From: a virus
DNA length: 64,000 bases
Strand: one strand, 5' to 3'
Virus record (IMG/VR): IMGVR_UViG_3300025151_000018
Span: 36,889 to 100,888 of that record
This document shows positions 9,701-62,755 of this stretch, piece after piece (within the stretch, counting starts at the first letter, position 1; every line of letters starts with the position of its first letter). The position numbers were made by a program, and so were the translations under genes. The notes under the pieces are model-generated. The model was given only the letters and a program-made list of their open reading frames with translations, was not told the DNA's origin and searched no databases.

Positions 9701-12658
9701 GAAAAGGCGTATGCCCCAATCACCGAGTATTCCTTCGCCTACGGTCACAATAAACCCTTTACCATCTGGTTCAGGAACGAGAGATGGGTTCTGTGTCAAA
9801 GTCCATTCGGCATCACCACCATTGTATTCCAAGCCCCCTGCGACCTGCAACGGGTCTTGAAATGCGGGTGATGTGATTGAATAAGAACCGCCTCCTGTCG
9901 GTGTTGTGTATTTTTGACCGCCTTCTTGAATAAACGGCAAGACACTATCAACTTCAATATAGGAAAGGCCGTTTTGCCAATCTGTAATGTTTGCAGATCC
10001 AGCAGCCACAGTTGATTCGGTTGCCGACCAAGACGCTGACGGTTTAGTGTATGTTGCTGCGTTTTCTCTAAAGCATCTAAATGCCTTGATGCCCTTGTTT
10101 GTCTGTGCAATGTAATCATTAACTCTAATTGCCGATATATTGGAGTCAAGCCCCCAATCTATCGCATATTTACTCTCTTGATGTTGCATCTGTGGGCGAT
10201 TAGCAGCCGTCATAGTAGCATCAATAACCATCTCAAGTGCATTTGAAGCAGGGAGAGGGCTATTCTTGTTTTTACTACTAATCAACCGTTTTTGTGTATC
10301 AAAAAACATAGATGGGAATATGGGAATCTCAACCAATGCACGAGTTGAGGCATAATAGGTTGAAGTTTGCTTGTCATTTCTAACCGATGGGTTGTTTGCG
10401 CTCATTATCACATCTTTCCAACCAGAAAGGTGCGGGTTTTCCTTGCGTATGGCTTTAATGTCAATGCCACCTTGCCCTAAACCACCCATTGTTAGGCTAA
10501 CAACAGGGCTACCTATGTCGCCAATCTCTTTCATTGGTGAACCTTCGGCTAAATTGAAATCACGATTAGAAACAGAGTCAGCAATATCTCTAACCAGAGA
10601 TCTGCCACGCAATAAGACACCATTTACCTCTCCTTCTTCACCGCCTGTCGGCACTATTTCCTCAACTCTGCCACGCAACATCATCAATTCAACATTACAA
10701 CGGTGATATTTTGTTGGTTCATCTTCCTTAGATTTCAATGTTGATAGTGTGTTGGTTCGGCTTCTTTGTTTAGGGTGAATTAGTAGTAAATGTCTGTCAT
10801 TCATCACCAAATTGTCAATAACATCAAACTGTTCTAACACAACAGGCTCAACATTCGGCAATGTTTTTCTAACAGGTTGCCCCCATTGATTATCCACCAT
10901 TGTCGGTGTTGTTGCCTTTCCTTCTTTCTGTTTGATGTCAATACTTAGAGTATGATATGCCCCTTCACTTTGCTTAACGGGGCTTCTGGTGTTAGATAGT
11001 GCAATTGGCAACCCCATAGGTCGGTTGCTTTCAAGTCCTTCTCCTGTGTATGATGCCAATTGACCTCCAAATGCAACCCCTCTTGGTGTTGATTCTATGT
11101 TAATGAATGGTGATTGTGTAGTTTCTCCTGTTGGGTTGATTAGCAACTCGTTTGATTGTATTGGCTTGTTTATGTCCTTTGTTGGTATAGAAATAAGACC
11201 ACCGGGTGCGTTAATCTTCAACGGTGAAGGCTGCGCCCCCGGTAAGGCTGAATTTCCGTATGGCTTTCTTAACCAATCCGCCAAACTTCTTAGCGTTCCG
11301 TCTGGATCATAATAGAATGTATTTGCATCGGGCATTGTCTTTTCAACTACAAGCCACCCAGACCCATCAAACTCCCATTGTTCGGAGTTTGGACTATTAA
11401 AAGACATTTCAGACCATTTGTTCTGTGCAGTATCTGTTAAACCATCATGGCTTCCTACACCAGACCCTTTTCTTGTTCCGCCCATCACTTCTCCTGTTAA
11501 GTCAATGGCATTGTAATAGACTAAAACCTTAGACGGACCACCTGCTTGTTGAAGAATAAACGGTGTTTCTATGGTGGCAATTCTGGATTCTTTTTCGGGA
11601 GATAAATGTCTAATGTAATTCCTGTTGGTGGGTCTAATGCCATTTGTATAATCAAAATGGGCTTCATGCTCTAAATCCAATCCTTTAAGCGCAAACGGTC
11701 TAATGTCATCAACCCTAATTGATATTATCGTTTCAGCCATAGAACCATCATTGTCAGCAAGAATAACTTTACTGTATGATTTGCCCTGTTGAGATATGAT
11801 TGCACTTACCTTATTTGTAGTCGCCAAATCTTCATATTGACTAATTGTTGATTGTGTTATGGTTTGTAGCCCTTCTCCTTGATACACCGTTTGAGTTATG
11901 TCGGCTTTATCATTAGTTTCAACCAAACTCCCTACTCCCATATCCTCAAACTTAGCCTCAAACCGATCAGAAATACCTTGCACCGTTTTTGATACATTAC
12001 TCTCTATTGGGTTTGGTAATTTTTTGAGGAAGAAGTGTCCTTCAACCTTATTGTATGATGTGAAACCGCACATTGAGGGGTATATTGTATCTGGCTCAAG
12101 TAGCATATTTTGATTAGCATACGCATTCATTCCAACATAAGATGCTTGTGGGCCTGTTCCCGGTGCAGGGCCAGCAGGTGCGCCACCACCACCACCGCCA
12201 CCACTTGGAGTATATACTCCCGTATTGATTGCAATATCAAATTCATTTGCAGTAAATCCAAATATCTGTTCTAAATGCGCTACATTCCAATTGGCTTTAC
12301 TAACACAACCTGTTCCACCCCACCATGTTGGATCCCAAGCCTGTCCTGTTGAAGCATAATTTACTTCATCGGGCTGACATAGGAATGAAGATTGCCCTAT
12401 ACAATATCTTTCAATGAACATTTGGATTTGACCCGGTGGCAATCCCAAGCCATTAAACATATACGCAATCATTGCCCCTATACAATCTCCCAACTCTTGC
12501 CAAGTGTTAGTAATGTGAGGATGTCCTATTGCGTTCCAATCAATTGGTGTGGCATAACCAGAACCTACAAACAAAAAGGCTCTGGGGGCGTAATCTATTT
12601 GCATTTGAAATGCAGTTGGCCCTATCGCAATCAATTCAGCCTCGGTAATAGCCGACAT
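6746..12658 (-). CDS. Giant tail protein with C-terminal LamG/ConA-like domain
   Basis: About 1970 residues. I prefer the ATG at 12658, which shares its A with the upstream TGA (TGATG); a TTG one codon earlier is also in frame. Residues about 150-170 form a Gly/Pro/Ala linker with seven consecutive glycines, which separates a small N-terminal module from the bulk. The last roughly 270 residues look like a laminin-G/concanavalin-A jelly roll: an opening strand WSITFCFKP, then WRQITVVKPLDG with a DNGVPMP hairpin, and a closing KGQLAELGLWVKALSVEEA. That closing string matches the usual 'identifying feature plus LS-x-E-E' end of these lectin folds. Known LamG modules in phage tails bind glycans, so host-surface recognition is the likely role. 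The central 1500 residues are not recognised. The gene is in a tail block, translationally coupled on both sides. Confidence 0.75.
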   Translation of the reverse strand: MSAITEAELIAIGPTAFQMQIDYAPRAFLFVGSGYATPIDWNAIGHPHITNTWQELGDCIGAMIAYMFNGLGLPPGQIQMFIERYCIGQSSFLCQPDEVNYASTGQAWDPTWWGGTGCVSKANWNVAHLEQIFGFTANEFDIAINTGVYTPSGGGGGGGAPAGPAPGTGPQASYVGMNAYANQNMLLEPDTIYPSMCGFTSYNKVEGHFFLKKLPNPIESNVSKTVQGISDRFEAKFEDMGVGSLVETNDKADITQTVYQGEGLQTITQSTISQYEDLATTNKVSAIISQQGKSYSKVILADNDGSMAETIISIRVDDIRPFALKGLDLEHEAHFDYTNGIRPTNRNYIRHLSPEKESRIATIETPFILQQAGGPSKVLVYYNAIDLTGEVMGGTRKGSGVGSHDGLTDTAQNKWSEMSFNSPNSEQWEFDGSGWLVVEKTMPDANTFYYDPDGTLRSLADWLRKPYGNSALPGAQPSPLKINAPGGLISIPTKDINKPIQSNELLINPTGETTQSPFINIESTPRGVAFGGQLASYTGEGLESNRPMGLPIALSNTRSPVKQSEGAYHTLSIDIKQKEGKATTPTMVDNQWGQPVRKTLPNVEPVVLEQFDVIDNLVMNDRHLLLIHPKQRSRTNTLSTLKSKEDEPTKYHRCNVELMMLRGRVEEIVPTGGEEGEVNGVLLRGRSLVRDIADSVSNRDFNLAEGSPMKEIGDIGSPVVSLTMGGLGQGGIDIKAIRKENPHLSGWKDVIMSANNPSVRNDKQTSTYYASTRALVEIPIFPSMFFDTQKRLISSKNKNSPLPASNALEMVIDATMTAANRPQMQHQESKYAIDWGLDSNISAIRVNDYIAQTNKGIKAFRCFRENAATYTKPSASWSATESTVAAGSANITDWQNGLSYIEVDSVLPFIQEGGQKYTTPTGGGSYSITSPAFQDPLQVAGGLEYNGGDAEWTLTQNPSLVPEPDGKGFIVTVGEGILGDWGIRLFIHKVAIVGNSHRLYYGAFHNPLDNTSSADPTQSNFVGHFISSGLPVVMGGWLTGASFQTGAQTAWNLDDLRFDVGTTDALSLVKKIGRSVEMLFGMRLGNDGKARVMLDPKDSNTILIKDGPSMEGMQLDPMHYYYGADDMPLRPPIELIPSYLGLKGKKNDNLTLDHVQKMHINFGEVATNVDDFNQGINEVIRLINQAAHPNATNTNGGSAFNPPALFAQSYSAMPNDDFYATSSTDTGSHMGYVRAFEGKEVESRDGESGMTIVIHSTIPGASSRNFAIWFNNNSPYGYRPQQAIGSGGLLTTNSRSYQINSFPAPLPIGADGETHVPITTFTGAVVGSVETQDNKLRLYEGIGQELTFFTVKNPRYNAINPTASAELLPDYDPDTQATLWVDRDILEMLNRANHINQFDRRGLILVDGKHLATFGGVSTFSAPFCKVSGPGACAALEDVQPYDSKLKEKFKDLFYDKDGRYQRVEIQLLSPMIDAHGILFFGGGHTGITFDVSDGTDNDYSDFYTHHYSKGPTGYSGLQNVEEIQKSAAVLDFTKLNNQDTAKANSYAGMHYKDDDCIAYVRFNNDGLPYIGDPDGNGGPDYGDDPPGSLPVMRPVENKYGLQLGMIGDFTNDLLNNGTLGFSILLGDNEASAVGKPLYKGSGTEPEGDISARGIHWDMGGSGHKAISLSKIPTKSSAMSYPVPTIPPRAGDILAQGPWSITFCFKPSNATDTTWQLSGYGNGPVLHGIDNNGAPWGVSILSRQYGMTAVGDANAQFDYRIVVHHKNSAASGEYHATWANGVAVKDAWRQITVVKPLDGTPIIYDNGVPMPNTETAGDYLYGGSFNTYPLNNDATYLGGQVGMPRLAKGLGTGTNANPLASGSTYYGRYQGQIVIGAALHGVPMVISPSGLWGSIKELADNTTIQGGFWTVAQLQYGNNNLNSQGGSQTAGSLTSRARTYFKGQLAELGLWVKALSVEEAMTIGQKNWGV

Positions 12659-15465
12659 CAAATATCAACTCCGTATTTATCTTCAAGGTGTTGTAGCACT
12701 ATTTCATCTTGCTGATCTGTCATGCGTTTAGGGAATACCATAATCTCATGCACTATGAAACCGGGCGGTGCTAAGTCTGTCAAGGTCGGTGTCGGACCGG
12801 AATGTAGCATTTTACCAAACATTTCAAATCCAGAATCTATTGGATTCGCATGATCGAACATCAATGGCGAAGTTGGTGTATATCCGTTTATGTTAGTATG
12901 TCCTTTAGCAAAGGAAAGACCCGATTTGAACATACCATATTCAATCATGTTATTGCTCTGGTCTATTCTAATTGACAGTATATGAGGGTCGCCTTCTGTT
13001 GGTTTTACACTTGCGATAGGGCTACCTATGCCATCAACATCAACTGAAAACTGTGTGCCAGCCGTATTGATTCTAATGTCTATGTTTTGATTACCTGCAC
13101 TATGAAGAAGCGGGAAAGAGTTTGACCCATCATACTTTGGAGTTATGACATAATAGAAAGTCCAATTACCATCAGTAGCATCTTCACCATTTATTGTTGA
13201 AATAGGCGAACCTGTGCTTGGGTCTAAGTTGAATGGCATTGGAGTTATCCCATTTACCGTTGGGATTCTAACTGTTGTTCCATTTACAAACGATGAGCCA
13301 CCATAATAGAATTGCCCTGCTGGATAACTCGGTGCTACTGTCGGTGATGAAATTGTCGGTGAACCACCCGGCAAGTTTGACGGCCCATGAGTTTGATACA
13401 GACTTCTAATGGCTTCTAACCCCGATCTGCCTCTAACATTATCGCACACCTTCTTGAATTTCCAACCATCTCCCCAACCAAATAACGCATAATTTTCGTC
13501 AGATGTTAATTGTGTTGATGGTGCTTTATTTCTCCACCAATGAACAACCATTCCATCAAATTTAGCGATTTGACCGTTTGCTTGGTATAATGTATTGAAG
13601 TCATTTGCATCATACCATAATGCCAAATCCTCAACAAACGGTGGTTGTTCAGCCAATGACTGTGATGGTTGCCCCTGTGCAAACATATTGTTGGCTAATC
13701 GTGATTTGGGTGCAAACCAATAGGCATGGTTGCCATTACCACTAACATCACTAAATCTTTGCGATTGCGTGAACCTTGCCCTTGTGTATTGTCCTCTTGG
13801 TCTTGTTAATTGCCCTGCGACAGAGGCATCGGTTTGCTCTGTGCCGGGGTCTATCGTTAAATCTCCATTTCCTAACACAAACCACACAGGAGTATCATCG
13901 GGGTGTTCAAACAAGAACCCCTGTGTTTTAGGCTCATTTGCTACTAAACCTGTTGCGGGGTCAGATGATAGAATTGTGCTTTGTATGACGACACATGGTG
14001 GCCTATTGACATAGCCACCTAACACATCACCAGCATTGTATGACTCATTGAAATTAAATTCTGGCCCTAAACCATAACCACCCGCCAAACCACCCTTGAA
14101 ATCTATTGCTACAATACGGACTCTTTCTATTGGGTTAGACATAGGATCTAAGTTAATCGCACCTGCGGTGTAAATGTCGTCATTCACCGTATCTGTCTGT
14201 GAAGCAAGAGGGCTTCTGTGTGTTCCTGTTATTGGGGATGTTCCTGATGCGTTAATTACTGCGTTTAATGGTGAAATGTGGATAGCCTTGTCAAAGTATG
14301 ATGCCTTTGTCAATTCATTTGACAAATCAAGAATACCAGACTCCCACCACGATTGCAACGGCAATTCTTCAACAGGGATATTTAGAAGATAAGATGCTAA
14401 TTTTTCATAAGCCGAAGGTTGCCTTGGGTCAATAGGACTTTCTAAAGAATCTCTGATTCTAAACCAACCATATTGATTACCTGCTGATAATGTTAGTGGA
14501 TCAGCAGCACCTGCAACGGTAGCACCCGATGGTGCTATGCTATTGAAGTCATAACCCAAACAAACCATAGGTAAAGGCATCAACCCCTCTGATTTTTCAC
14601 GCACCGCACCATCTTTACCAGATGATGGGTGCAATGGGTTTTTGTTGTTATAGAAATACACTTCTGGTATATCTATTTCATCTTCAAAATTCCATAGACC
14701 TGCGGTTTCGCTTGTTTTTGTTAGTGGTCTTAGCATTGGATCTATGACTCCCCTACTAACCCTAACGCTTTCTATTACGCCTCTAAATTCTCCACCCATG
14801 CCACCTATGAATACATCAGATGAAAATGAACGGACAATCCTATCCTCTCCGCCAAAATCAATTTCGCCAACTAAATCCATGTTAATGTATATTCTCATTT
14901 TTTGGCGGGTGAATTGTGCATTTACATACAACAATTCTCTTTGAGGGAGAGTCAAATCCTCTGGTCTATACTTTGAATATGATTCATTCATCCCATCTAT
15001 AACCATAGCACCTGAATATACATCATATTTATTGGCATTGGTGCTACCGAATGCGGGGTATGATGTGGTTGAAACAACCCTCTGGCTTTCTTCTTCTCCG
15101 TTTGGTGATAAAGTATGCACATCAAAGATGGCTCGCCCTTTATTTCTAACATCACCCACCTTCAAGGTATAGCAATTGGGTTTGTGTAATACAACACCAC
15201 CCATGTCAGGAATAATGTATGCTTCAATAGTGAATGCACCTATCATGTTATTCAATGTATTACCCTCATTAGGAATGTGATACATACCTATTTTGGTTTG
15301 ATTGCTCTCATAACTCTGTGTTGCATTTGCAGCCCCTGTTTTTTCTGGGTGATCAGGTGAAAACATATCAACACCAGACTCTGCAAAAGAGCCTGTTGGC
15401 ACTACCATCCCATCAGTATAACCATTTAGGCGAACCGCTTGTGAAAAATGAGAGCGAATAGGCAA
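12658..15465 (-). CDS. Tail protein with two LamG/ConA-like domains
   Basis: 935 residues. The start is a TTG at 15465, since no ATG lies in frame until residue 20; that assignment is uncertain. An N-terminal jelly roll at about residues 70-250 contains TIEAYIIPD, an RQKMRIYINMDLVGEIDF hairpin and a closing FRGVIESVRVSRGVID. A second at about 690-935 contains NWTFYYVITP, HILSIRIDQSNNMIEYGMF and the terminal HEIMVFPKRMTDQQ, ending LEDKYGVDI. That ending is the form common in viral ConA-like domains, where the last helix reads 'xxYLxxKYG'. Carbohydrate binding or a trimeric spike is the likely role, by analogy with other tail lectin modules. It shares its stop base with the start of the next giant gene and follows the 418-residue tail protein by a few bases. 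Confidence 0.75.
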   Translation of the reverse strand: MPIRSHFSQAVRLNGYTDGMVVPTGSFAESGVDMFSPDHPEKTGAANATQSYESNQTKIGMYHIPNEGNTLNNMIGAFTIEAYIIPDMGGVVLHKPNCYTLKVGDVRNKGRAIFDVHTLSPNGEEESQRVVSTTSYPAFGSTNANKYDVYSGAMVIDGMNESYSKYRPEDLTLPQRELLYVNAQFTRQKMRIYINMDLVGEIDFGGEDRIVRSFSSDVFIGGMGGEFRGVIESVRVSRGVIDPMLRPLTKTSETAGLWNFEDEIDIPEVYFYNNKNPLHPSSGKDGAVREKSEGLMPLPMVCLGYDFNSIAPSGATVAGAADPLTLSAGNQYGWFRIRDSLESPIDPRQPSAYEKLASYLLNIPVEELPLQSWWESGILDLSNELTKASYFDKAIHISPLNAVINASGTSPITGTHRSPLASQTDTVNDDIYTAGAINLDPMSNPIERVRIVAIDFKGGLAGGYGLGPEFNFNESYNAGDVLGGYVNRPPCVVIQSTILSSDPATGLVANEPKTQGFLFEHPDDTPVWFVLGNGDLTIDPGTEQTDASVAGQLTRPRGQYTRARFTQSQRFSDVSGNGNHAYWFAPKSRLANNMFAQGQPSQSLAEQPPFVEDLALWYDANDFNTLYQANGQIAKFDGMVVHWWRNKAPSTQLTSDENYALFGWGDGWKFKKVCDNVRGRSGLEAIRSLYQTHGPSNLPGGSPTISSPTVAPSYPAGQFYYGGSSFVNGTTVRIPTVNGITPMPFNLDPSTGSPISTINGEDATDGNWTFYYVITPKYDGSNSFPLLHSAGNQNIDIRINTAGTQFSVDVDGIGSPIASVKPTEGDPHILSIRIDQSNNMIEYGMFKSGLSFAKGHTNINGYTPTSPLMFDHANPIDSGFEMFGKMLHSGPTPTLTDLAPPGFIVHEIMVFPKRMTDQQDEIVLQHLEDKYGVDI

Positions 15466-48085: not shown

Positions 48086-48513
48086 TCTTTCATCTCCCTA
48101 AACCTGCGCTTCCATTGTTCTTCATTTTCTCTTTGAAGTTTTGCTTCATGAATCCTTCGCTCTCGCCTTAATGCCTCTTTCCTTGCGGATAGCGGATATG
48201 GCTCTCCACCAGCCGACCTATCCCAACTGTAAGGTTCTGGTCTTTCACCAGACATATCTTGATCGTGCCTATATCTAATGTCTATATCTGGAAAACTCCC
48301 TTTGTATTTGTGATAAGCGTCAGACATATCTCTTTCATTGCCTTCTTCATCAATGTAGCCTAATTGTTCAGGAACGACAACGCCATCCCATTTGCGCTGA
48401 CCGTAGCGAACCTTGTCGCCTTCAACCATTCGCTTGCCTTCCTCAACCTTTTCTCTTGGGCCGATAAACTCTTTGACTATCGCCCAACCTACTGCAAATG
48501 CTCTATTACTCAT
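48082..48513 (-). CDS. Small charged protein starting with the GW-helix motif
   Basis: 143 residues. The motif is at the very N-terminus: RAFAVGWAIVKEFIG at residues 4-18. The remainder is strongly charged, with KRMVEGDKVRYGQRKWDGVV, a Tyr/Asp/Pro-rich loop section and a final Arg/Glu helix (EALRRERRIHEAKLQ). No zinc site. No family is recognised. The gene overlaps both neighbours, by eight bases upstream and four downstream. Confidence 0.55.
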   Translation of the reverse strand: MSNRAFAVGWAIVKEFIGPREKVEEGKRMVEGDKVRYGQRKWDGVVVPEQLGYIDEEGNERDMSDAYHKYKGSFPDIDIRYRHDQDMSGERPEPYSWDRSAGGEPYPLSARKEALRRERRIHEAKLQRENEEQWKRRFREMKE

Positions 48514-49213
48514 CTAATACCCCCGCATCGGCTAATGCCTTTCTCAAGACACGCCATTCATCTGGCGATTTCTCGCTGAAATGTGCTTGTATTACAGTCA
48601 ATACATTCACCTGCTCGTTGCCACCAATAGCCTCAACCCTTTCAAGATATTCCCCAATGTCAGACAAACTATCCCTTATTTCTTTGTGTAGTCTAACTGC
48701 GGTATCAAGACCTTTGTAATCAAGTGTGCCTTCTTCTATTTGCTCTTCACGCATTATATCCACATGATCATTAAACAGGGTATTTAGCCGTTGAAGATTC
48801 CTTTCTGTCTGTTGCATAGCACCTTGAACCGTAGTAATGGTTTGAGGGATTGTTTCTATTGCAACTTGCCTCTGTATGATTGGTTGAGTATGTTCCTGTA
48901 TGTGATGTGATAAAGCATCCACAGTTATTTCTAAATCATCAGCCATAGCATCAATAGGCACTATGTGATTTAAGACGGCTTCTTCAATGTTGGCTCTTTC
49001 AGGGTGTGTGCAAACAGGACATTCGGAATTACTGTTGTTGTGAAACTCCCCTGCATGTCGCCTCATGTGCCTATGAGCCGTTCCCTCCGCCCATGATTGG
49101 TCGGCATCTAACTCGGCCTCTGAAATTAACCCAAGTCGGATATTACGCTCAAAAGCATCTCTTTGTGGGTGCTGACAAAAGGTGCAATTCCGCCTTGTCC
49201 TCCGACCCACCAT
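48506..49213 (-). CDS. Tandem zinc-finger protein, candidate small terminase
   Basis: 235 residues. There are two tandem copies of a C-x2-C-x-H-P-x-R ... H-x3-H unit: Cys 10 and 13 with His 49 and 53 (CTFCQHPQRDAFE), and Cys 65 and 68 with His 104 and 108 (CPVCTHPERANIE). The segment between the Cys and His pairs reads like a helix-turn-helix (DAMADDLEITVDALSHH). Such 'C-x-x-C-x-H-P, HTH, H-x-x-x-H' modules are common in phage DNA-binding proteins, some of them small terminases. The rest is a coiled coil (QQTERNLQRLNTLFN) and an acidic end. Small terminases bind the packaging site and are upstream of terL; the match in size and architecture supports this but does not prove it. Confidence 0.6.
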   Translation of the reverse strand: MVGRRTRRNCTFCQHPQRDAFERNIRLGLISEAELDADQSWAEGTAHRHMRRHAGEFHNNSNSECPVCTHPERANIEEAVLNHIVPIDAMADDLEITVDALSHHIQEHTQPIIQRQVAIETIPQTITTVQGAMQQTERNLQRLNTLFNDHVDIMREEQIEEGTLDYKGLDTAVRLHKEIRDSLSDIGEYLERVEAIGGNEQVNVLTVIQAHFSEKSPDEWRVLRKALADAGVLDE

Positions 49214-49225
49214 GTTTAGCGCATA

Positions 49226-49465
49226 TCATTCATCTTTATGTGTTTTCTCATATATTTTACGGTGAAGGTCGCAATATGGTGATGGTTTTTGCACCGCCTT
49301 CTTGCACCTATTACCAGATTTTGCTATCGCTTTACACCTATGTGGCTCTGGATCAGATTTAGGCACAGGCTTCGCCTGTGGTTGTTCCGCTACATACGCT
49401 TGCGGTTGCGGGGCGTAATTTACCCGCCCACTAATACCGAAAGGCTGCGTATTGTCGTATTGCAA
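49226..49465 (-). CDS. Small zinc protein
   Basis: 79 residues. It starts at a TTG at 49465 with no ATG in frame, so the exact start is uncertain; it overlaps the upstream membrane-protein gene by 35 bases. The N-terminus is Pro/Gln-rich. Residues about 44-70 read RCKAIAKSGNRCKKAV and PYCDLH, a C-x7-C-x8-C-x2-H zinc site of a type seen in many small bacterial and viral proteins that handle nucleic acid. A basic tail ends the protein. Confidence 0.5.
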   Translation of the reverse strand: MQYDNTQPFGISGRVNYAPQPQAYVAEQPQAKPVPKSDPEPHRCKAIAKSGNRCKKAVQKPSPYCDLHRKIYEKTHKDE

Positions 49466-49682
49466 GTGTTGCGGTTAAGATAAGACCAAAGAACATAGCC
49501 ATCATTTCACCTGTTCCAAGTGATGGCCCTTTCCACACTAACATTACCATTGAAAACAACATAAACGCCAAAATGAAAATCATTGTGGCACTTTCAACTA
49601 ACATCTTATTTGGCGACATTAAACCTACGGTTGTTGCCGACCAATTTACATCTCCTGATATTGTTCTATCATCTTGACCCAT
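49431..49682 (-). CDS. Two-TM membrane protein, holin-like
   Basis: 83 residues. Two hydrophobic segments are evident: MIFILAFMLFSMVMLVW at about 34-50 and MMAMFFGLILTATLAIR at about 60-76, separated by a short Gly/Ser loop. The N-terminal 28 residues are polar. Small size, two segments and a charged short end are the features of holins, but no family signature is visible, and archaeal viruses often lyse or exit by other means. It is near other membrane genes at 52 kb. Confidence 0.55.
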   Translation of the reverse strand: MGQDDRTISGDVNWSATTVGLMSPNKMLVESATMIFILAFMLFSMVMLVWKGPSLGTGEMMAMFFGLILTATLAIRQYAAFRY

Positions 49683-49686
49683 TATA

Positions 49687-50340
49687 TCACAATCCTACTG
49701 CTGCACCCTTAGCAGCCATGTTCACACCTTGCCCCATAGTAGCACCAAAGCCACCGTTTTGCTGAACCGCATTACCCATCATACCACCAAGAAGGCTACC
49801 AAAGAAGCCCGGTTGTTGTTGTTGTTGCATATTGTTCATCATCATACCTTGTTGATGTGCTGCAAGGAACATTTGTAATTGTTGTTGATTGGCGTTTAAC
49901 ACATTCTGCGCTGAACCCTGTGCCTTTTGTAATGTAAGAGCCAGATTTTCTGGTGATAGTGTTGCAAGGTCTTGTGGTAGTGTTGAAGTATCAAGAGTTA
50001 TTTTATCTCCATCTTGCTTAAATGATACATTGTTGAAAAACTCTTTAATTGACAACATCATAATTTCACCGACCAAATCAAGCACAAGTGCCATGTTTTG
50101 AGAAATCACAAAAGAGGAAACGGGGTCATATAGTTGTAGTAATTGTGAAGTCGCCAAGACAGGATCATTCGCTGCTTGTTGCATCATCGGGTTTTGTGTC
50201 GCTTGCATCATACCCATCATGCCATTGTTCATACCGCCATATTGCTGATTCATACCGCCAAACCCTTGCTGCGCTGCAAGTGATGGCGCACCAAACTGTT
50301 GCGCTGGTTCGCTCTTATTTCCAAATCCAAATAACCCCAT
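49687..50340 (-). CDS. Met/Gln/Gly-rich protein with hydrophobic core
   Basis: 217 residues. ATG at 50340 follows GGTGA. The N-terminal 60 residues are Met/Gly/Gln-rich (MNQQYGGMNNGMMGMMQATQ), the middle is a folded helical segment (SQNMALVLDLVGEIMMLSIK), and the end is again Gln/Met/Gly-rich with an apolar Gly-rich tail (FFGSLLGGMMGNAVQQ). The ends could line a membrane or assemble as disordered adhesive segments. No family is recognised. Confidence 0.5.
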   Translation of the reverse strand: MGLFGFGNKSEPAQQFGAPSLAAQQGFGGMNQQYGGMNNGMMGMMQATQNPMMQQAANDPVLATSQLLQLYDPVSSFVISQNMALVLDLVGEIMMLSIKEFFNNVSFKQDGDKITLDTSTLPQDLATLSPENLALTLQKAQGSAQNVLNANQQQLQMFLAAHQQGMMMNNMQQQQQPGFFGSLLGGMMGNAVQQNGGFGATMGQGVNMAAKGAAVGL

Positions 50341-50352
50341 TGTTTCACCTAT

Positions 50353-51246
50353 CTATTGTTTTGCTTCCATTTGCTGATTCATTTGCTGCATTTGTGGGTT
50401 GATACCCATCTGTGCCTGTTGAGTTAATTGTTCCATTTGCAACGCCCTCAAATCAAAAGTGATACTAACCAAATCCGCTATGCCTGTCATTGGGTTCGGG
50501 TGTTGCGTCATTACAACCCCTTTTGAGTATTGTGCATCTTGTTGCACCATTCTAAAGAATGGCTCATATTTCATTAGCGACTCTGGTGTTGAACGGTTTT
50601 TCTGTGTCTTTCCTGTCAAACCCGGCACACGCAAAAATCTTGTTCCTTTTGCTACTACCTTTCCAAACCCTTCTTTAGCCATATCTTGTTCTTCAACCAT
50701 GCACTTTAGTGTATGGTAAATATGCAAATGAGCAGGGCATAATGTGCTATTCATCTGGTCGCCATGATCGCCATGTGTGCGAGCATGAGGCTTATTGGCT
50801 TGCCCTGTATCTTCATTAAACCAATATATATCGGCTAATGACAATCCTGTGCGGTCATCAACAATATGAGAATATGCGTTATCACCTTCTAAGAATCGCC
50901 TGACATCAACGCCACAACAAGCACATTCATGTGGTGCATTGTAGCGATATACTTTGAATAGCCCCAAATTGTAGTTTGGTGGCCTTAGTGCTTTGCGAAG
51001 CATCTTGATATTTTTCTTTCTGGCTTTGGCTGGATTCTTGTGGTTGGTCTTTAGATTGATTTCAACCGTTGGTATCATCTGATCATCGTGCATATCGCCC
51101 GATGAACCTGCGCTTGCCATTTCAGCCCTCTGTTGTGCTTTCAACAACTCATAAGCAATGCCCGTTTGCTGCGATAAAACACGCAACTGATCGTCAGAAA
51201 CACCATTGAGGGAAACACCACCGTTGCCAAAGAAAGGGATTCCCAT
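50353..51246 (-). CDS. Metal-binding protein with HNH-like Cys/His cluster
   Basis: 297 residues. N-terminus MGIPFFGNGGVSLNG, then a basic segment (KNPAKARKKNIKMLRKALRP). Residues about 108-180 contain CACCGVD, a loop with SHIVDDRTG, and CPAHLHIYH: a Cys-Cys/His pattern reminiscent of HNH or treble-clef zinc folds, though the canonical HNH nuclease triad cannot be assigned. The C-terminus is Met/Gln-rich as in the next gene. It lies just after the GTPase gene. Confidence 0.5.
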   Translation of the reverse strand: MGIPFFGNGGVSLNGVSDDQLRVLSQQTGIAYELLKAQQRAEMASAGSSGDMHDDQMIPTVEINLKTNHKNPAKARKKNIKMLRKALRPPNYNLGLFKVYRYNAPHECACCGVDVRRFLEGDNAYSHIVDDRTGLSLADIYWFNEDTGQANKPHARTHGDHGDQMNSTLCPAHLHIYHTLKCMVEEQDMAKEGFGKVVAKGTRFLRVPGLTGKTQKNRSTPESLMKYEPFFRMVQQDAQYSKGVVMTQHPNPMTGIADLVSITFDLRALQMEQLTQQAQMGINPQMQQMNQQMEAKQ

Positions 51247-51285: not shown

Positions 51286-52014
51286 TCAAATTAGGTGTAT
51301 AGTATCAACTATTGCCTTTTCAACATGCAAGCCGTATTGAGAAGATATTGCTTCAACATTGGTCGGAATACCTGCCCTTCTCAATCTTCTCAACTCATCT
51401 TGAAACGGTATCACCATTCTATACTGCCTTTTTAGCCCCATAGACCATAGTGCATCTGACTCTGGACTCCACCAAATATCCATCTTATTTAACAAAAGAC
51501 AGACAACCTTTGGTTTCCAACGCTTTGCCTTTTTCTTCATTTTCCTTGAAAATGTTGATGGATATTTAGTATCTGTAATCATATCAACAATATACTGAAA
51601 CCCTGCAACTGCCTCATTACGCAGGTGTGGAGATAACATTATTCTGTGATCGACAACATAGAATATAATATCCCTATGCTCATCTATTATATCTTTAGCC
51701 CACATTCCCCAATACTGTTGTTGCCCCCCTATGTCTGACGATGTAATAGGGGTTCTTTCTCCATTGAATCTAACTTGTTTCTTTGTGCTTCTCGGCATAG
51801 AGAAATTGCCATTGCGAACAGGGTGCGTAGTCCTTAACTCGGCAGGTATTGGGTCAATATCACCGGGAACAGTTAGGTATTGATCAAGAGTTGTTTTACC
51901 GACCATAGATGGCCCATATACCCCAACCCTATGCGGTTTCAACAATCTATACACATAAGTTGCTATTTGGGCTGAACCTAACAGTAAATGCCCTGCAAAC
52001 ATCCATGTTGCCAT
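51286..52014 (-). CDS. Arf/Ras-like small GTPase with N-terminal membrane segment
   Basis: 242 residues. All nucleotide-binding motifs of a small GTPase are visible: G1 GPSMVGKT (residues 34-41), G3 SSDIGGQQQYW (about 92-102, DIGG at 94-97), G4 LLNKMD (NKMD at 176-179) and a G5-like EAISSQYG (about 221-228). The DIGGQ followed by a Trp-containing helix and IIFYVVDHR resembles Arf/Sar/SR-beta GTPases (D-V-G-G-Q ... F-V-V-D) more than Ras. Residues about 4-25 are apolar (WMFAGHLLLGSAQIATYVY), a probable membrane anchor, giving the topology of SR-beta. There is a basic insertion before G4 (KMKKKAKRWKPK). It is clustered with two membrane proteins upstream. Its role may be in membrane trafficking, assembly or exit; no direct evidence. 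Confidence 0.75.
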   Translation of the reverse strand: MATWMFAGHLLLGSAQIATYVYRLLKPHRVGVYGPSMVGKTTLDQYLTVPGDIDPIPAELRTTHPVRNGNFSMPRSTKKQVRFNGERTPITSSDIGGQQQYWGMWAKDIIDEHRDIIFYVVDHRIMLSPHLRNEAVAGFQYIVDMITDTKYPSTFSRKMKKKAKRWKPKVVCLLLNKMDIWWSPESDALWSMGLKRQYRMVIPFQDELRRLRRAGIPTNVEAISSQYGLHVEKAIVDTIHLI

Positions 52015-52020
52015 TCACGA

Positions 52021-52242
52021 TCACTCGCCCCGAATGTGCTGCCAAATGGCTTCTGGGCTTATTTGAAGCCAAATATCCATGCCAACCAAAGTTAGAAAGG
52101 TTATACCAGCAGTTGCAACAACCGCAATAATTAGTTTGATGTTGTTTGTCGCTCGCTCTAACCTTCGCTCATAAGCATTCTCGGCTAATATCATAGACAT
52201 GGCTTCGGCTTGTCTTTCATTAGCGGTGCTAAACGGCCACAT
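52021..52242 (-). CDS. Small single-TM protein beside the GTPase
   Basis: 73 residues. A charged amphipathic N-terminal half (AENAYERRLERATNN) is followed by one membrane segment, IKLIIAVVATAGITFLTLVG, and a short polar end (DIWLQISPEAIWQHIRGE). Six bases separate it from the GTPase start, so the two should be made together. No family is recognised. A membrane partner of the GTPase is the simplest inference. Confidence 0.6.
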   Translation of the reverse strand: MWPFSTANERQAEAMSMILAENAYERRLERATNNIKLIIAVVATAGITFLTLVGMDIWLQISPEAIWQHIRGE

Positions 52243-52252
52243 GGGTATCGCC

Positions 52253-52738
52253 TCATTGCACTATGATGCCTTGCTCTTCTTGATTCTTTTGCTCATCGGC
52301 TGGCTCTTCATTAGGTAATCCAAAGGTTTGACCGCCCACCGCTTGATTCCAATGTTGTTGCTTTGACATTTCACTATATTGATACTGCCGATCTTTACGC
52401 ATCCTTCGCTCTTGCAATCTATGTTGAGAGCGTAGCCACTTATCATAGCGGTTCTCTTGAGCAAACTCGGCTCGCATTTGAAGCGAATCTCTGATGCCAC
52501 CGACATGAAACAAGACCATAGCAAGACAGAGGAAACCAAAACAGATTAGCCCGTATTGCAACCCCATCTCGGCTGGCCCTGCATCGGCCAAATACCAATT
52601 CAGGTGCGATACTGCTACTGCCGTTCCTGTTAGCAAAGATTGCCACAGTAGCATGGCTATTAGGTTAATATCAATTCGGTTTTCATCCATTCCACCATAC
52701 GGTGGTCTATTTGGTGGTTGTTGCTGCATTCTATTCAT
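52253..52738 (-). CDS. Two-TM protein of the GTPase cluster
   Basis: 161 residues. A Pro/Gln-rich start is followed by two apolar segments, LIAMLLWQSLLTGTAVAVSH at about 26-45 and GLICFGFLCLAMVLFHVGG at about 62-81. The C-terminal half is a long charged, Arg/Gln-rich, probably cytoplasmic helix (YDKWLRSQHRLQERRMRKDR) and a Gln/Glu tail. The start overlaps the preceding ribbon-helix-helix gene by eight bases. It could be a receptor or scaffold for the GTPase at the membrane; that is inference. Confidence 0.6.
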   Translation of the reverse strand: MNRMQQQPPNRPPYGGMDENRIDINLIAMLLWQSLLTGTAVAVSHLNWYLADAGPAEMGLQYGLICFGFLCLAMVLFHVGGIRDSLQMRAEFAQENRYDKWLRSQHRLQERRMRKDRQYQYSEMSKQQHWNQAVGGQTFGLPNEEPADEQKNQEEQGIIVQ

Positions 52739-52865
52739 CTCCCCTTTGTTTGAAGTATTGCGCTAAAATATGATTCACAAACGATGACTTAGATTCCCTG
52801 CCCCGTTCCGCCTCCATTTTGGCAAACAATTCATCAGGCATTACTACCGATACATGACGGCTCAT
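52731..52865 (-). CDS. Ribbon-helix-helix (CopG/Arc-like) regulator, 44 residues
   Basis: Start ATG at 52865, stop TAG at 52731-52733. It begins SRHVSVVMPDELFAKM, continues with EAERGRESKSSFVN and ends HILAQYFKQRGDE. This is the ribbon-helix-helix pattern: a beta strand of alternating polar residues (HVSVVMP), helix 1 (DELFAKMEAE), a turn with Gly-Arg and Ser-Lys-Ser, and helix 2 (SFVNHILAQYF). Such dimers insert the paired strand into the DNA major groove. It is the first gene of the long minus-strand operon, next to the divergent plus-strand genes, so it is likely to regulate this junction or the late genes. Confidence 0.75.
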   Translation of the reverse strand: MSRHVSVVMPDELFAKMEAERGRESKSSFVNHILAQYFKQRGDE

Positions 52866-52904
52866 GTGTAAATGCCACTACTGTTAAGGCTATCAAGGTT
52901 GTGA

Positions 52905-52911
52905 TTAAATA
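52905..52911. promoter_or_regulatory. TATA-like box in the divergent intergenic region
   Basis: TTAAATA lies about 27 bases before the ATG of the plus-strand gene at 52935, the spacing expected for an archaeal TATA box and leaderless transcript. Read on the other strand (TATTTAA) it is about 40 bases before the ribbon-helix-helix gene. The region between 52866 and 52934 is the only gap between these divergent genes and holds no other gene. Confidence 0.4.
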
Positions 52912-52934: not shown

Positions 52935-53453
52935 ATGAGCGCAGCAAACCTACCAGAAACTGTATCGGCATTAAGGTCTTTTCAACAGACAAGCAGGTTA
53001 AATGCTGACAACCCTTCAATACTTGAAACTTGGATCCAACGACATACAAATGAAGATACTGCAACCGATTTTAGTTTCAACGCAGCAATCGCAATTTTAC
53101 ATTACCACAATCACCCACTATATGGCGACATAAACAATGTTAGCACAGAAGCACAAACATGGATTTCCCATGTTCAACCTGCTGAAACAATACTCGCACA
53201 AGAGGAAACATGGTTAGATATGCAAACTACTACTATGTTATCCACCAATTTAGTCCGAATCTTCGGATCAGATAACCATTGGTTAGGTCAATGGGGCAGC
53301 ATTAACAATCTCGGTAATGTTCCTATTGCTTATGTTGTCAATTATTTAATTACCCGCTTGCAAATATGTGAAGGAAACAACGGCCCAACAGGTGCAAATA
53401 CCATCTCTCATACCTCGCAAGAGCCACCGGGTATGCAAGAGGAAATCCCATGA
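52935..53453 (+). CDS. Unknown protein, plus-strand pair with HMG-CoA lyase-like gene
   Basis: 172 residues, largely helical with many Asn, Thr and His (FNAAIAILHYHNHPLYGDIN; QTWISHVQPAETILAQEETW). The C-terminus is Pro/Ser-rich. The stop overlaps the start of the next gene as ATGA, so the two are translationally coupled. No family is recognised. Base composition and style match the rest of the virus. Confidence 0.55.
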   Translation: MSAANLPETVSALRSFQQTSRLNADNPSILETWIQRHTNEDTATDFSFNAAIAILHYHNHPLYGDINNVSTEAQTWISHVQPAETILAQEETWLDMQTTTMLSTNLVRIFGSDNHWLGQWGSINNLGNVPIAYVVNYLITRLQICEGNNGPTGANTISHTSQEPPGMQEEIP

Positions 53454-54274
53454 ACAAAGCCATACGGATTTATGAAGTCGGCCCAAGAGATGGCATACAG
53501 GTCATGCAACACATTGTTGATACAGATCTCAAGGTAAAACTAATTGAAAGTCTGGTAAAGGCTAATTTGAAAGACATTGAAGTCGGTTCGTTTGTTCACC
53601 CCAAACTTGTTCCTAACATGGCTGATTCAGCCGAAGTGTATGAAAAAATATCACATTTAGATGGTAATTTTGGGGTTCTTGTGCCAAACGGCAAGGGTTT
53701 GAGCCGAGCGCAAGAAGTGGGTGCTAAGATGTTTAATGTATTCTTTTCACCCGTTGCCTCATTCAATATCGCTAATCACGGTAAAACCTATGATGAAGTC
53801 TTTGAGCAATACTACATTGCACTAAAGGATATACCCAGAGATAGGGTTCGGGTCTATCTATCCATGTCATTCCACGCTACAAAGAAGCAAATGCACAAGG
53901 CTATGAAAGACGCTTTGATGCTTGGCGACAAGGTTGTATTGTGTGATACAGACGGCAAAGCATCAAGCGAGCAATTCTATCACACTATACGCAGGGCATT
54001 AGAGCATACAGATAATGTTGCAATTCACCTACACCAAAGCACAAAACTCATGCAAAATGTCGCTACTGCCTATGATATGGGTATTACGGAGTTTGATTGT
54101 AGCATAGGTGGTATGGGCGGTTGCCCGTTTGTTGAAGGATCTAAGGCTAACCTTGCCACAGAAGATTTGGTTCAATGGTGCAAAGAGCGTGATATACCCT
54201 GTAATGTGGGTGATTTATCACAAGCGTTAGAGATTGTTAGTAAAATCAAAAATCATCAAGTTGTCTTGGGTTAA
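53450..54274 (+). CDS. HMG-CoA lyase-like DRE-TIM metallolyase
   Basis: 274 residues. TIM-barrel lyase of the HMG-CoA lyase family, which splits 3-hydroxy-3-methylglutaryl-CoA to acetyl-CoA and acetoacetate. Seen: EVGPRDGIQ with the catalytic Arg-Asp, IEVGSFVHPKLVPNMADSAE with the conserved Glu, HLHQSTK with the two metal-binding His, and GGMGGCPFVEG followed by SKANLATEDLV, with the reactive Cys and the metal-binding Asn. All key residues of the family are therefore present; only the Asp usual after the second His is Gln. It is slightly shorter than cellular enzymes (about 300). The gene ends 29 bases inside the convergent methylase-fusion gene. A viral role (leucine or isoprenoid metabolism of the host) is inferred; a close homologue of other specificity cannot be excluded. 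Confidence 0.8.
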   Translation: MNKAIRIYEVGPRDGIQVMQHIVDTDLKVKLIESLVKANLKDIEVGSFVHPKLVPNMADSAEVYEKISHLDGNFGVLVPNGKGLSRAQEVGAKMFNVFFSPVASFNIANHGKTYDEVFEQYYIALKDIPRDRVRVYLSMSFHATKKQMHKAMKDALMLGDKVVLCDTDGKASSEQFYHTIRRALEHTDNVAIHLHQSTKLMQNVATAYDMGITEFDCSIGGMGGCPFVEGSKANLATEDLVQWCKERDIPCNVGDLSQALEIVSKIKNHQVVLG

Positions 54275-56672
54275 GTTTGGTATTGTAAATATGCTCTAAC
54301 AATGAAGGAGGGTATCTTGCAAGTGGGTTATCGTGATCAGCATAACCGATTGTTGAACCTCTCCGATAACACGCACGACACTTCTTTTCTCCCGTCATTG
54401 GGTCAGGTTGCATATCACATTTCCTTTTGAGTTGATTAGGCTCAATTGAAGCGGGGCATACGCTAAAATTAGGGTTGTTTTCCATAAGTGTGTCATAAGT
54501 AGTGAAGTCAATCGCAGGGTGTTTTCCTAATTCGTGCAAATTAACACCCTCATACACCGTGTTGGGTTTAATGTCATCAGGAGTCATTCTTCCCGGTAAA
54601 GATACCTTTAACGCCAAATTAGGTGAAATATCTTCCCAACCTCTCGCATCAAGGAACTCTTGTAAGAACGGTAATTGGCGTGTTGAACCCCAAAAATCAA
54701 CGGCAGGGTTGTCCTCTGCTATTTTGTCTGCTGCTGCATACGCACCCGGTCCTTGAGCATCACCTGCCGACCATAACCTTGCAACAGGTTTGTCTTTTCT
54801 TGAAGTGCGGTCTAACAATGCTCTTGGTGTTGCAGTAAGTGAATAGGCTGATGCTACTTCTTCTGGGTGTTCTATCATTCTATCATAATTTCTCCAAAGT
54901 GCTGCTTGTGTTGAGTTGAATTTGTAGTTATGGTCGCAAGCATAACAATGACCGCAAGCCGAATTAGGATTATCTCTTGTAGCAAAGACACAGGCTCTTG
55001 GTGGTGCATCCATCATAGATGGCCCTGCCATTTTACCCGGTTGTCCGTAATGCCCGAACTTCTCTGGCTTTCCTCTATAATCAAGATTTACACTAACATC
55101 TTCCCATTCTGGCAATTCATAATCAGCGTCAAGGGGAATATCCATCAAGCGGGGATTACCAAACTCATCGGTGATGTGGTCTTGCACCAAATAGTCGTTT
55201 GCTTTTAACCAATTGATAAGATCCATATTTCCGCTATTCCATTTCCCTTCAACCTTTTTTCCTGATTCTTTTCCTGTTGGGATGCCAAGATCTTTCCACC
55301 AATTCATGTAATTTGGCATTTCATCAGGTGCTACTGCCTTGTTGAATATATCAGCCATTTCTGTCAAATCATTGACAATTGACCTGCGAATGATTGTCTG
55401 TGGGTCTATGCCGTCAGGAAAAAACTCGGCTTTTCCTAACCAATCGTCTGGGTTGAATGCTTCACCAAACCTTTGTTCCCATGCCATAGCCTCTTCTGGT
55501 GTTCCTAAGAATTGTTGTTGTGGGTGATCTCTAAAATACTCGGCAGCGTCAAAGTTAGGAATGTTTGCAGTAGCAATCAATTCGGGCTTAATGCCTCTTT
55601 TACCTACTGTTGCAGTATTATCCCTGCGTCTGTTCAACATTGTGCTAAAGCCTTGATCGCGATATAAATCCGCAACAAGTGGGCTATTGTATGCTATGAT
55701 AGGCAAACCATCTTCGGCTAATTCACCCAATCGCCTTGCGAGTTGTTGTTGCTGACCGCTTTTCATATCAAACTTATCAGAATACCCTGCTTGCTCTCCT
55801 TCATACGGTGGGTCAATTGGCATAATACCCCTATTGGTATCAATCTCCTTATCCCTCAAAAACTCATCAACAGGCATAGCATCCATTTCCCAATTTTCCA
55901 TCATTGGCTTGTAGTGCCTGTAATTCCATATATCAGCATAAGGGCCACCTGCGCCTCTTGTCATGGTATATCTTCCTGTTTGGTTGTTATATCTGGTAAA
56001 TGCGTTTAGTGAAGATTGCTGCGTCATAAGCCACAATTGGGCTAATCGTTTGTAGCCATCATCATCTAATTCTCCACGATTCGCCATGTCTAACATATAA
56101 TTTAGTGAACCTTCTTCTGGATTTATTGCACTACCTCTTAATGTCGGTCCATCATAATGGCTTATGTCATGTCCTCCTTGAACCGCAGCCTCTTGGCCGA
56201 ATTGAGAGCCAAAGAATGTCGGCTTGCTAATCATATTTGGCCTTGCTATATATTCCGAAGGATCCATCTGTTGCCCTGCTTTTTGTCCTGTTGGGAAAAT
56301 TTGTCTTGCCCTGTCATCATCAGGAATACCATGCCCTGTAAATTCCGACCAATCAATTTCAAAGTTGGGGTCTTGTTGCATTTGGCGATATGCGTTAATG
56401 ATGTTAGCATCTTTATCGGCTACTGATATTTCCTTCATAGGCAAATTCAATGGTAAATTCGCACCACCAACCATTGGGTCATACAGAATATCAGCACCTG
56501 TCCTTGAAACTATGCGCTTCAAAGGGTCAATGTAGTGATCTCTCCCTTTACTACCAGCCCACTTTAATGGTGATTGTATTTCTGGGCGACCCTTTTGCGG
56601 GGGTTTTATACCTCTAACACCTTGACCTTTTGGCTTAGGGTCAGGGCCATCAAAGAGATAACGGTTAGCCAT
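54246..56672 (-). CDS. Dam-type adenine methylase fused to Gp88-like Cys-rich domain
   Basis: 808 residues. Residues 34-340 form a D12-class N6-adenine methyltransferase: SPLKWAGSKGR (SAM-binding 'KWAGGK'), DPMVGGANLPL in place of the 'E-P-F-x-G-x-G' motif, and the catalytic DPPY at 287-290 (IMPIDPPYEGEQAGYSDKF). There is a long linker. Residues about 555-790 resemble the mycobacteriophage Gp88-type domain: ACGHCYACDHNY with closely spaced cysteines, later FSVCPASIEP and KCRACYRRGS. Such C-x2-C-Y clusters may bind an iron-sulphur cluster. Fusion of the two is not a combination I know. Its 3' end overlaps the lyase gene by 29 bases tail-to-tail. Likely role: DNA modification or protection, with an unknown second activity. 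Confidence 0.72.
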   Translation of the reverse strand: MANRYLFDGPDPKPKGQGVRGIKPPQKGRPEIQSPLKWAGSKGRDHYIDPLKRIVSRTGADILYDPMVGGANLPLNLPMKEISVADKDANIINAYRQMQQDPNFEIDWSEFTGHGIPDDDRARQIFPTGQKAGQQMDPSEYIARPNMISKPTFFGSQFGQEAAVQGGHDISHYDGPTLRGSAINPEEGSLNYMLDMANRGELDDDGYKRLAQLWLMTQQSSLNAFTRYNNQTGRYTMTRGAGGPYADIWNYRHYKPMMENWEMDAMPVDEFLRDKEIDTNRGIMPIDPPYEGEQAGYSDKFDMKSGQQQQLARRLGELAEDGLPIIAYNSPLVADLYRDQGFSTMLNRRRDNTATVGKRGIKPELIATANIPNFDAAEYFRDHPQQQFLGTPEEAMAWEQRFGEAFNPDDWLGKAEFFPDGIDPQTIIRRSIVNDLTEMADIFNKAVAPDEMPNYMNWWKDLGIPTGKESGKKVEGKWNSGNMDLINWLKANDYLVQDHITDEFGNPRLMDIPLDADYELPEWEDVSVNLDYRGKPEKFGHYGQPGKMAGPSMMDAPPRACVFATRDNPNSACGHCYACDHNYKFNSTQAALWRNYDRMIEHPEEVASAYSLTATPRALLDRTSRKDKPVARLWSAGDAQGPGAYAAADKIAEDNPAVDFWGSTRQLPFLQEFLDARGWEDISPNLALKVSLPGRMTPDDIKPNTVYEGVNLHELGKHPAIDFTTYDTLMENNPNFSVCPASIEPNQLKRKCDMQPDPMTGEKKCRACYRRGSTIGYADHDNPLARYPPSLLEHIYNTKLNPRQLDDF

Positions 56673-61164: not shown

Positions 61165-61222
61165 CTTGTTAATGTTGTCATTTGTGTCAAGGTTAATATG
61201 TATGGTCGGCTCGCATAGGTTC

Positions 61223-62755
61223 ATGCAAGGCCAACCCGTCTTTATCATGCAGCAGGGAACAACACAGGAACAAGGGAGAACCGCCCAAACTAACAATATC
61301 GCAGCAGCGAAGGCAGTTGCACAAGCGGTTCGCACCACTTTAGGACCAATGGGTATGGATAAAATGCTCGTTGATGAAAGTGGAGATGTGATTATTACCA
61401 ATGACGGTGCTACAATCCTTGAAGAGATTGATATTGAGCATCCAACGGCTAAAATGATTATTCAAATCGCCAAAACACAGGAACAGGAATGTTATGATGG
61501 CACTACATCAGCAGTTATTGTATCTGGCGAGTTGCTAAAGAAGTGCGAGGGGTTGATCGAGCAAGATATACACCCAACCACCATTTGCAGGGGGTTGAGA
61601 AAGGGTCTGGTCTTTATATTAGAAAAATTGAAAGACTACGAGATTGCCGACATTGACCTTGACAAAATTGCCAAAACTGCCCTTACAGGTAAATCGGCTG
61701 ACTCGTTTAAGGACATTATATCTGACATTTGCGTTAATGCGGTGATGAATACCGACAGTCTTGAGGAAATTCGCATCTCAAAAGCACTTGGTGGGTCAGC
61801 AGAGGACAGTATTATCCTTGATGGCATCATCATAGACAAGGAAAGATGCCACCCTGCTATGCCAACATACCTAAAAAAGCCGTTTATAGGGCTAATTGAC
61901 AGTAATTTGGGTGTAAAACAGACAGAAATTGATGCAAACATACAAATTACCGATCCTGCACAGATTGAGGCGTTTTTGGCTAAGGAAGAAGCCGAATTAC
62001 AGGCTATGGCAGAGAAATTCCATGCTGAAAAGGTCAATGTAGTGCTATGTCAGCGTGAAATTGATGATTTAGTCAAGTATCACTTCGCAAAATTGGGTAT
62101 TTTGGCTCTTGAGAAGGTCAATAAGACCGATATGGAGGCAGTAGCGTCAGCATCTGGTGCTACAATCATCAATAATGTCAAAGATTTGAATACTGACGCA
62201 TTAGGTTCGTTTAATTTGGCTGAACAGGAAACACTTGGCGAGTTGCCAATCCTAAAACTGTCAAATGGAGTCAATGCAGCCACTACTGTGCTACTGCGTG
62301 GCCCTACTACACACTTTGTTGATGAAATTGAAAGAGCATTTGACGATGCTTCGGGTGTTGTTAGCGTTGCACAATCCGATTCTGTTGTCCTTGCAGGTGG
62401 TGGATCCACCTATACAGGCTTATCCAACAACCTTGCAGCCCATGCAAAGACTGTATCAGGCCGTGAAGGTATGGCAATCCTTGCTATGGCGGAGGCACTT
62501 GAGGCAATTCCACGCACTTTGGCAGAAAACGCAGGGCTTGACCCCGTTGATGAGATGATGGCTTTGCATAAAGCACATGATAAGGGCAAAAAGTATCACG
62601 GAATTAACATTGAAGTCGGTGGTGCTATTGATATGCGTAGTCTGGGAGTCTTTGAGCCTAAGCGAGTTGTTGAACAGGCACTAAAGTCAGCAGTTGAAAC
62701 CGCAATCATGGTTCTCCGCATTGACGATATTATATCTTCAAAGAAGCGTGATTAA
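61223..62755 (+). CDS. Group II chaperonin (thermosome subunit)
   Basis: 510 residues from the ATG at 61223 ([13 protein letters not shown]), which matches family N-termini (GQPV-x-I); in-frame starts at 61202 and 61166 would add residues. Seen: [40 protein letters not shown], the ATP-site [15 protein letters not shown] (family GDGTTTA; the catalytic Asp is kept, the first Gly is Tyr), and the C-terminal [32 protein letters not shown], and [11 protein letters not shown]. Length equals cellular thermosomes, so the gene looks intact. Thermosomes are ATP-driven double-ring protein-folding machines of archaea. Here it may fold the large tail proteins or help the host under infection. Promoter and operator sequences lie just upstream. 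Confidence 0.92.

Follow-up and report, generated by a model that had tools for sequence, protein, structure and literature searches.

We found that a gene block conserved among magroviruses encodes a predicted Ras/Arf-type small GTPase beside small membrane proteins, and that the GTPase is a core gene of the two virus clades in which it was followed. Tentatively, and with slightly more doubt than conviction, we read the block as a magrovirus core module around a Ras/Arf-type GTP switch, one that would tie assembly/packaging or exit to a membrane site. The DNA analysed, called the window below, is a stretch of 64,000 nucleotides corresponding to positions 36889-100888 of the 100,888-bp IMG/VR virus record IMGVR_UViG_3300025151_000018. 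It comes from a magrovirus, one of the tailed viruses that infect Marine Group II / Poseidoniales archaea.

Viruses of the order Magrovirales infect Poseidoniales and have genomes of 90-110 kb, their own PolB and primase, and morphogenesis and replication blocks that run in opposite directions (PMC12999244). We assigned the record to this order because its size, gene content and opposite transcription fit that definition. The minus strand of the window carries genes for the tape measure, major capsid (MCP), maturation protease, portal and large terminase (TerL) proteins, in agreement with the placement of the block in a tailed virus, on the structural-gene strand, that a preliminary description of this DNA had given. 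The plus strand in the left part of the record carries PolB (E 7.7e-29), an RFC-like AAA clamp loader, the primase large subunit and other replication genes. The window MCP shares 32-33% identity with its counterparts in the haloarchaeal viruses HVTV-1 and HCTV-1, as for the magrovirus/Druskaviridae lineage. The window virus has in common with magroviruses genome size, MCP kinship, PolB, RFC-like clamp loader, primase, two opposite gene blocks and a thermosome. Its MCP is also 82% identical to an MCP on contig 2 of the assembly 'uncultured Candidatus Poseidoniales archaeon isolate AG-422-I20', and that virus contig is collinear with the window across its readable 75-106 kb. The first ~75 kb reads N, so that the failure of a PolB query to return this contig carries no weight. 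The name suggests that AG-422-I20 is a single-cell genome; if it is, the contig would be direct host evidence for the virus. The magrovirus literature examined makes no mention of a GTPase, although the first description of 2017 and the survey of 2025, which lie outside it, may contain an earlier annotation.

Across 82 distinct contigs, of which IMG/VR supplied 80 and the Poseidoniales assembly and the window one each, the order TM161-TM73-GTPase-Zn297-Q217-TM83-c235 was kept without exception, contig edges aside (Table 1). The GTPase was found at every one of these loci, as were Zn297, Q217, TM83 and c235, and the three loci without TM161 are cut by contig ends. Counterparts of TM73 occur at the same place in the clade-2 loci examined, as judged by eye and by alignment. 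From the 44-aa ORF through TM83, the gaps between genes measure -8 to 39 bp, and a scan for Zn297 returned 41 contigs, every one of which was also in the GTPase list. The preliminary description had proposed a unit of this kind. The block is indeed real, with the same gene order and conserved membrane-protein genes in related metagenomic viruses, but it is larger than stated, extending to 48506.

Table 1. Features of the gene block and a further gene of the window virus (positions in the window; loci, number among the 82 contigs)
Feature	Position	Strand	Details
9-bp tandem direct repeats (CACAACCTT-CATAGCCTT-like), immediately upstream of the start of the RHH gene	52867-52905	-	putative operator/promoter
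44-aa putative ribbon-helix-helix (RHH) regulator, block head, clade 1 only	52731-52865	-	54/82 loci; pattern read by eye
TM161, two-TM hairpin whose long tail is charged and coiled-coil-like	52253-52738	-	TM 26-44, 64-82; 79/82 loci
TM73, single-TM protein with conserved N-terminal segment	52021-52242	-	TM 37-55; 56/82 loci by profile
Ras/Arf-type small GTPase (predicted), 242 aa, N-terminal amphipathic helix at residues 2-25	51286-52014	-	motifs, alignment, profile, model
Zn297, conserved soluble protein with Cys/His cluster	50353-51246	-	82/82 loci; alignment
Q217, Met/Gln/Gly-rich protein	49687-50340	-	82/82 loci; alignment
TM83, two-TM protein, earlier called 'holin-like'	49431-49682	-	TM 31-49, 57-75; 82/82 loci
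Zn79, small variable Cys/His protein	49226-49465	-	54/82 loci
c235, two Cys/His segments and coiled-coil	48506-49213	-	82/82 loci
Group II chaperonin (thermosome)	61166-62755	+	window virus

We also searched in the other direction, starting from the MCP. In clade 1, 18 of 38 MCP contigs carried the GTPase, 21.2-24.2 kb upstream of the MCP; one of the 18, apparently circularly permuted, has it at the other end. The 20 contigs without the gene all end within 2.4-19.8 kb, before the expected site. Clade 2, with an MCP 65-66% and a GTPase about 34-37% identical, gave the GTPase in 7/7 contigs with enough upstream DNA, at 22.1-23.3 kb from the MCP. The seven clade-2 contigs that lack it have 8.6-22.7 kb of upstream DNA, distances that were computed by hand and that leave one negative borderline. 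Because the gene is present in every MCP contig long enough to reach the site (18 in clade 1 and 7 in clade 2), we conclude that the GTPase is a core gene of both clades.

The 242-aa product has the complete small-GTPase signature noted in the preliminary description: G1 GPSMVGKT(T), G3 DIGGQ, G4 NKMD and G5 SSQYG are all present. Across an alignment of 35 homologues, which are 34-80% identical to the window protein, the invariant residues (in 242-aa numbering) are G34, G39, K40, T41, T42, T62 of switch I, D94, G97, W105, N176, K177 and D179. With the exception of the Trp, these are the GTPase-defining P-loop, switch I Thr, DxxG and NKxD positions, and such invariance of nucleotide-contact residues is far beyond chance. 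The P-loop (80% identity), switch I (71%) and switch II (65%) are among the best-kept parts of a protein that is 55% identical as a whole. Other positions vary among the 35 sequences: G5 reads SAQ, SSQ, AAQ or ATK; the first Gly of DxGGQ is replaced by Ala in part of the family; and the residue after DxGG is mostly Gln, elsewhere Glu, Asp or His, so that the catalytic Gln is not fixed. For the GTPase pair compared, dN was 0.154 with dS saturated, and hence no dN/dS was derived. One copy, in L333 (G438:C1:24365-25075), contains a single in-frame TGA, which is either a sequencing error or the mark of an inactivated copy.

Single-sequence searches of Pfam, PHROGs and the PDB with the window GTPase gave no significant match. 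With a profile, the best match was an Asgard Arf-like structure, PDB 8oun (E 1.8e-6, 30.9 bits), in a region that includes DLGGQLHFRNLW; Arl8, Arl10, Rab33, Arf1 and G-alpha followed with far weaker scores. The Pfam Arf family (PF00025) weakly matches 24/35 members, the best listed score being 2e-4 or 21.3 bits (L039), where the cut-off is 22.3, and the window GTPase itself has no Pfam Arf match. The SR-beta model weakly matches 8/35 members, and the EF-Tu, Ras, Roc and RagA models match as well, none above its own cut-off among members with listed scores. MglA was absent among the profile and structure matches listed, and Zn297, Q217 and TM161 gave no roadblock-type (MglB) match at the sequence level.

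An AlphaFold2 model built from the 35-sequence alignment (a single prediction, made with no nucleotide) reached a pLDDT of 84.6 and a pTM of 0.83. Foldseek returned 1060 PDB matches to it at E<=1e-3, and the best 50 of these were all small GTPases, including Rac, Rho, Rab, Ras, Arl3 and Arf (Rac3, E 1.3e-8). The best chain-normalised TM-score among the matches listed, 0.71, was shared by a Rab5 and 8oum_E (the Gerdarchaea Arf GTPase GerdArfR1, rmsd 4.4). The model thus shows the product to have a GTPase fold rather than a non-GTPase P-loop fold. A model from 13 sequences had been too weak (pLDDT 71.7, with no Foldseek match below 1e-3), which the larger alignment resolved.

As the best profile match is an Arf-type structure but no Pfam family reaches its cut-off, we regard the protein as representing a divergent Ras/Arf-type family, nearest to Arf by motif and profile, and do not class it as an Arf. 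Of the 'Arf-like GTPase' first proposed, the small (Ras/Arf-type) GTPase fold and the Arf-type best profile match stand, but to place the protein within the Arf family itself would go beyond this evidence. We also weighed whether the product might be a P-loop protein that binds nucleotide with no switch function, being structural or degenerate. The unfixed catalytic Gln and the Pfam GTPase scores below cut-off, in those members with listed scores, could be read in this way, but none of the defining elements (P-loop, switch I Thr, DxxG, NKxD) varies and switch I ranks with the best conserved stretches, and we consider such a protein very improbable.

A comparison with known GTPases gave likenesses and differences in each case. 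A Trp 11 residues after the G3 Asp is common to Arf and G-alpha, and the viral family has it, D94, G97 and W105 being invariant. With eukaryotic Arf/Arl and G-alpha it shares DxGGQ(x6)W, NKxD and the G5 pattern, but it does not have the Gly2 used for myristoylation, as the 35 sequences start MA, MS or MV. The Asgard Arf-like GTPases (8oum, GerdArfR1; 8oun) likewise have a helix before the P-loop and DxGGQ with Trp at +11 (DLGGQLHFRNLW / DIGGQQQYWGMW). The viral protein differs from them in being ~60 aa longer (in the G3-G4 and G4-G5 stretches) and ~16% identical, in a DxGGQ that in part of the family reads DxAGQ or has E/D/H in place of the Gln, and in belonging to a virus of Poseidoniales, not of Asgard archaea. 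SR-beta (SRPRB) is also a membrane-linked small GTPase, but no SR-alpha-like partner was recognised here and the viral protein has no N-terminal TM.

This last point bears on the N-terminal apolar anchor of the preliminary description. The best 19-residue hydropathy in the N-helix (residues 2-25) ranges from 0.7 to 1.55, below the usual TM cut-off of 1.6, with a moment of 0.27-0.69 (one truncated row excepted). Thus, the TM anchor expected of SR-beta was ruled out, and in its place both model and hydropathy indicate an amphipathic helix. Arf proteins carry an N-terminal amphipathic helix.

Among 146 Poseidoniales genomes the GTPase occurs in one, on a virus contig, and 0/146 gave an Arf-family match at 1e-3, in a search that was positive in 12/14 control genomes; derivation from a host gene was rejected on these grounds. 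Weak matches elsewhere in the phylum (Thermoplasmatota) belong to an Era-like family, which is not the same family: its P-loop stretch IGIYGPxxxGKTTL is similar (6e-6, 26 bits), but the match spans only residues about 10-71 and its G3 is DTPG, where the viral G3 is DxGG or DxAG. No relative was found in 50,697 phage records, and PHROGs held no significant one. In BFVD, the named matches among the best 50 were GTPases and other proteins of giant eukaryotic viruses. Such GTPases are virus-encoded and have the same fold, but they are annotated Ras, Rab or Ran, of the eukaryotic kind, whereas the protein described here is a core gene of archaeal tailed viruses with no host counterpart detected. 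A further hit, PAUP01000076.1 (L024), comes from a 'Cytophagaceae bacterium' MAG; it has the same length and range as the IMG/VR contig L085, which carries the module, and we rejected it as a bacterial gene, since it is probably a mis-binned virus contig.

The same data bear on a possible host take-over, in which the GTPase would redirect a membrane process of the host (secretion, division or protein insertion) or prevent superinfection. In cells, GTPases of the Arf/SR-beta type work at membranes. The GTPase of the AG-422-I20 virus contig is 49-50% identical to that of the window; at ~49%, compared with 77-82% for MCP, portal and TerL, it diverges faster than these, as a host-facing protein would. 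Nevertheless, Poseidoniales offered no Arf-family match to mimic (0/146), and the entire block is conserved, not the GTPase alone. Host take-over therefore seems improbable to us.

The partners of the GTPase in the block are ORFans. The single-TM and two-TM neighbours described earlier were confirmed as TM73 and TM161. In TM161, conservation is strongest in the TMs and loop (75-84% identity within clade 1, against 38% in the tails), a pattern that points to specific helix packing rather than simple anchoring. Residues 1-32 of TM73 are 76% identical and its TM only 41%, as for an anchored binding peptide. Zn297 has invariant residues C108, C170, H173, H175 and H178 and may bind zinc; it gave no PDB or Pfam relative, and neither Q217 nor TM161 gave a PDB relative. 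The matches of c235 in Pfam and PHROGs were weak coiled-coil ones only, and by place and build it could be small-terminase-like. As for the 'two-TM holin-like protein 1.6 kb on', TM83 does have two TMs and does lie 1.6 kb downstream of the GTPase, but it has no significant holin family match, and 'holin-like' describes its topology only. In a search of TM73, TM161 and TM83 against PHROGs for holin families, TM83 had no match and the only hit was TM73 to phrog_689 at E 0.092.

The presence of three small TM proteins in the block raises the alternative of an egress (lysis) switch, in which TM161, TM73 and TM83 would form a lesion or exit site, a holin-like role in peptidoglycan-free archaea, and the GTPase would time lysis. 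The conservation of the TM161 helices and loop is what would be seen in a packed pore or oligomer, the block is on the structural-gene strand, and no other lysis gene was recognised among the genes examined. Weighing on the other side are the holin search, which gave nothing beyond E 0.09, and the place of the block at the gene-run head, adjoining packaging genes; moreover, we know of no holin that uses a GTPase. We regard the egress switch as unlikely, albeit worth keeping in mind.

The block opens the morphogenesis gene run at its 5' end, with TerL, portal, MCP and tape measure downstream, and this position at the head of the run suggests a role in assembly, packaging or exit. Linkage on one strand to c235, TerL, portal and MCP could also mean that the block encodes virion components, such as proteins that enter the cell along with the DNA, with the GTPase acting in entry. 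We give this little credence: TM proteins are rare in tailed virions, and to our knowledge no free GTPase is known in one.

At the head of the block, the 9-bp repeats showed a period-9 self-identity of 0.445 over 43 distinct clade-1 upstream regions, whereas the remaining periods between 6 and 13 gave 0.20-0.30. The repeat motif has one occurrence in the window, where 0 are expected, and no further copies were found there. The repeats are probably the operator/promoter of the block, and they fit autoregulation by the RHH protein. The RHH regulator previously placed at the head is backed by a plausible RHH-like pattern and by the upstream 9-bp repeat, but not by Pfam, in which the 44-aa protein has no family support for RHH. 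In the clade-2 viruses L076, L078, L096 and L097, a ~2300-aa ORF (about 1-7100) lies directly upstream of TM161, in the place of the RHH-like gene.

For the assembly, packaging or exit module that we favour, the following scheme can be drawn. The block would be co-expressed with the structural genes under the control of the RHH-like regulator. With GTP bound, the N-helix would insert into the archaeal membrane from its inner side, and the switches would bind a viral membrane complex made up of a TM161 oligomer and of TM73, the latter by way of its conserved N-terminal peptide. This complex would recruit the soluble partners Zn297/Q217, and their recruitment would tie virion assembly or packaging to a membrane site, or to an exit step. 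The variation of the catalytic Gln (Q/E/D/H) argues against assured GTP cycling; as this residue is not conserved, hydrolysis would probably be slow unaided, and a partner would serve as GAP and release the complex. Linkage of the genes suggests that the GTPase contacts the membrane proteins, although neighbours in a lytic genome can stay linked without interacting.

Close to evenly poised, in our estimate, is the broader proposition that magroviruses evolved or captured a membrane G-protein system of their own, a GTPase with receptor-like/effector proteins, that organises assembly or exit and has no host counterpart. Ras/Arf-type switches at membranes typify eukaryotic cell biology, and their roots lie in the Asgard archaea. 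If the proposition is true, a prokaryotic virus would encode a membrane-traffic-like switch, and a divergent Ras/Arf-type core gene beside membrane proteins would be the first such tailed-virus system, within the libraries searched. Poseidoniales are abundant, non-Asgard ocean archaea whose viruses are abundant and uncultured, and we know of no lysis or exit gene for these viruses. The block makes it testable how magroviruses assemble in, or leave, archaeal cells.

The flanks of the block vary, and among them are an HMG-CoA-lyase-like gene, a 172-aa gene and a methylase/GP88 gene. The HMG-CoA-lyase-like gene (53450-54274, plus strand; PF00682, 6e-20) is a possible auxiliary metabolic gene that occurs in only 14/82 related loci, at a varying position. 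Beyond the tape-measure gene are two giant ORFs on the minus strand, at 2-6745 (at least 2248 aa, without a Pfam match) and 6746-12661 (1971 aa). The methylase/GP88 gene of the window (54246-56672, minus strand) encodes an 808-aa protein in which a D12-type adenine methylase part, scoring slightly below the cut-off, is fused to a GP88 domain (PF17338, 4e-12); L003 has a separate ORF for each part.
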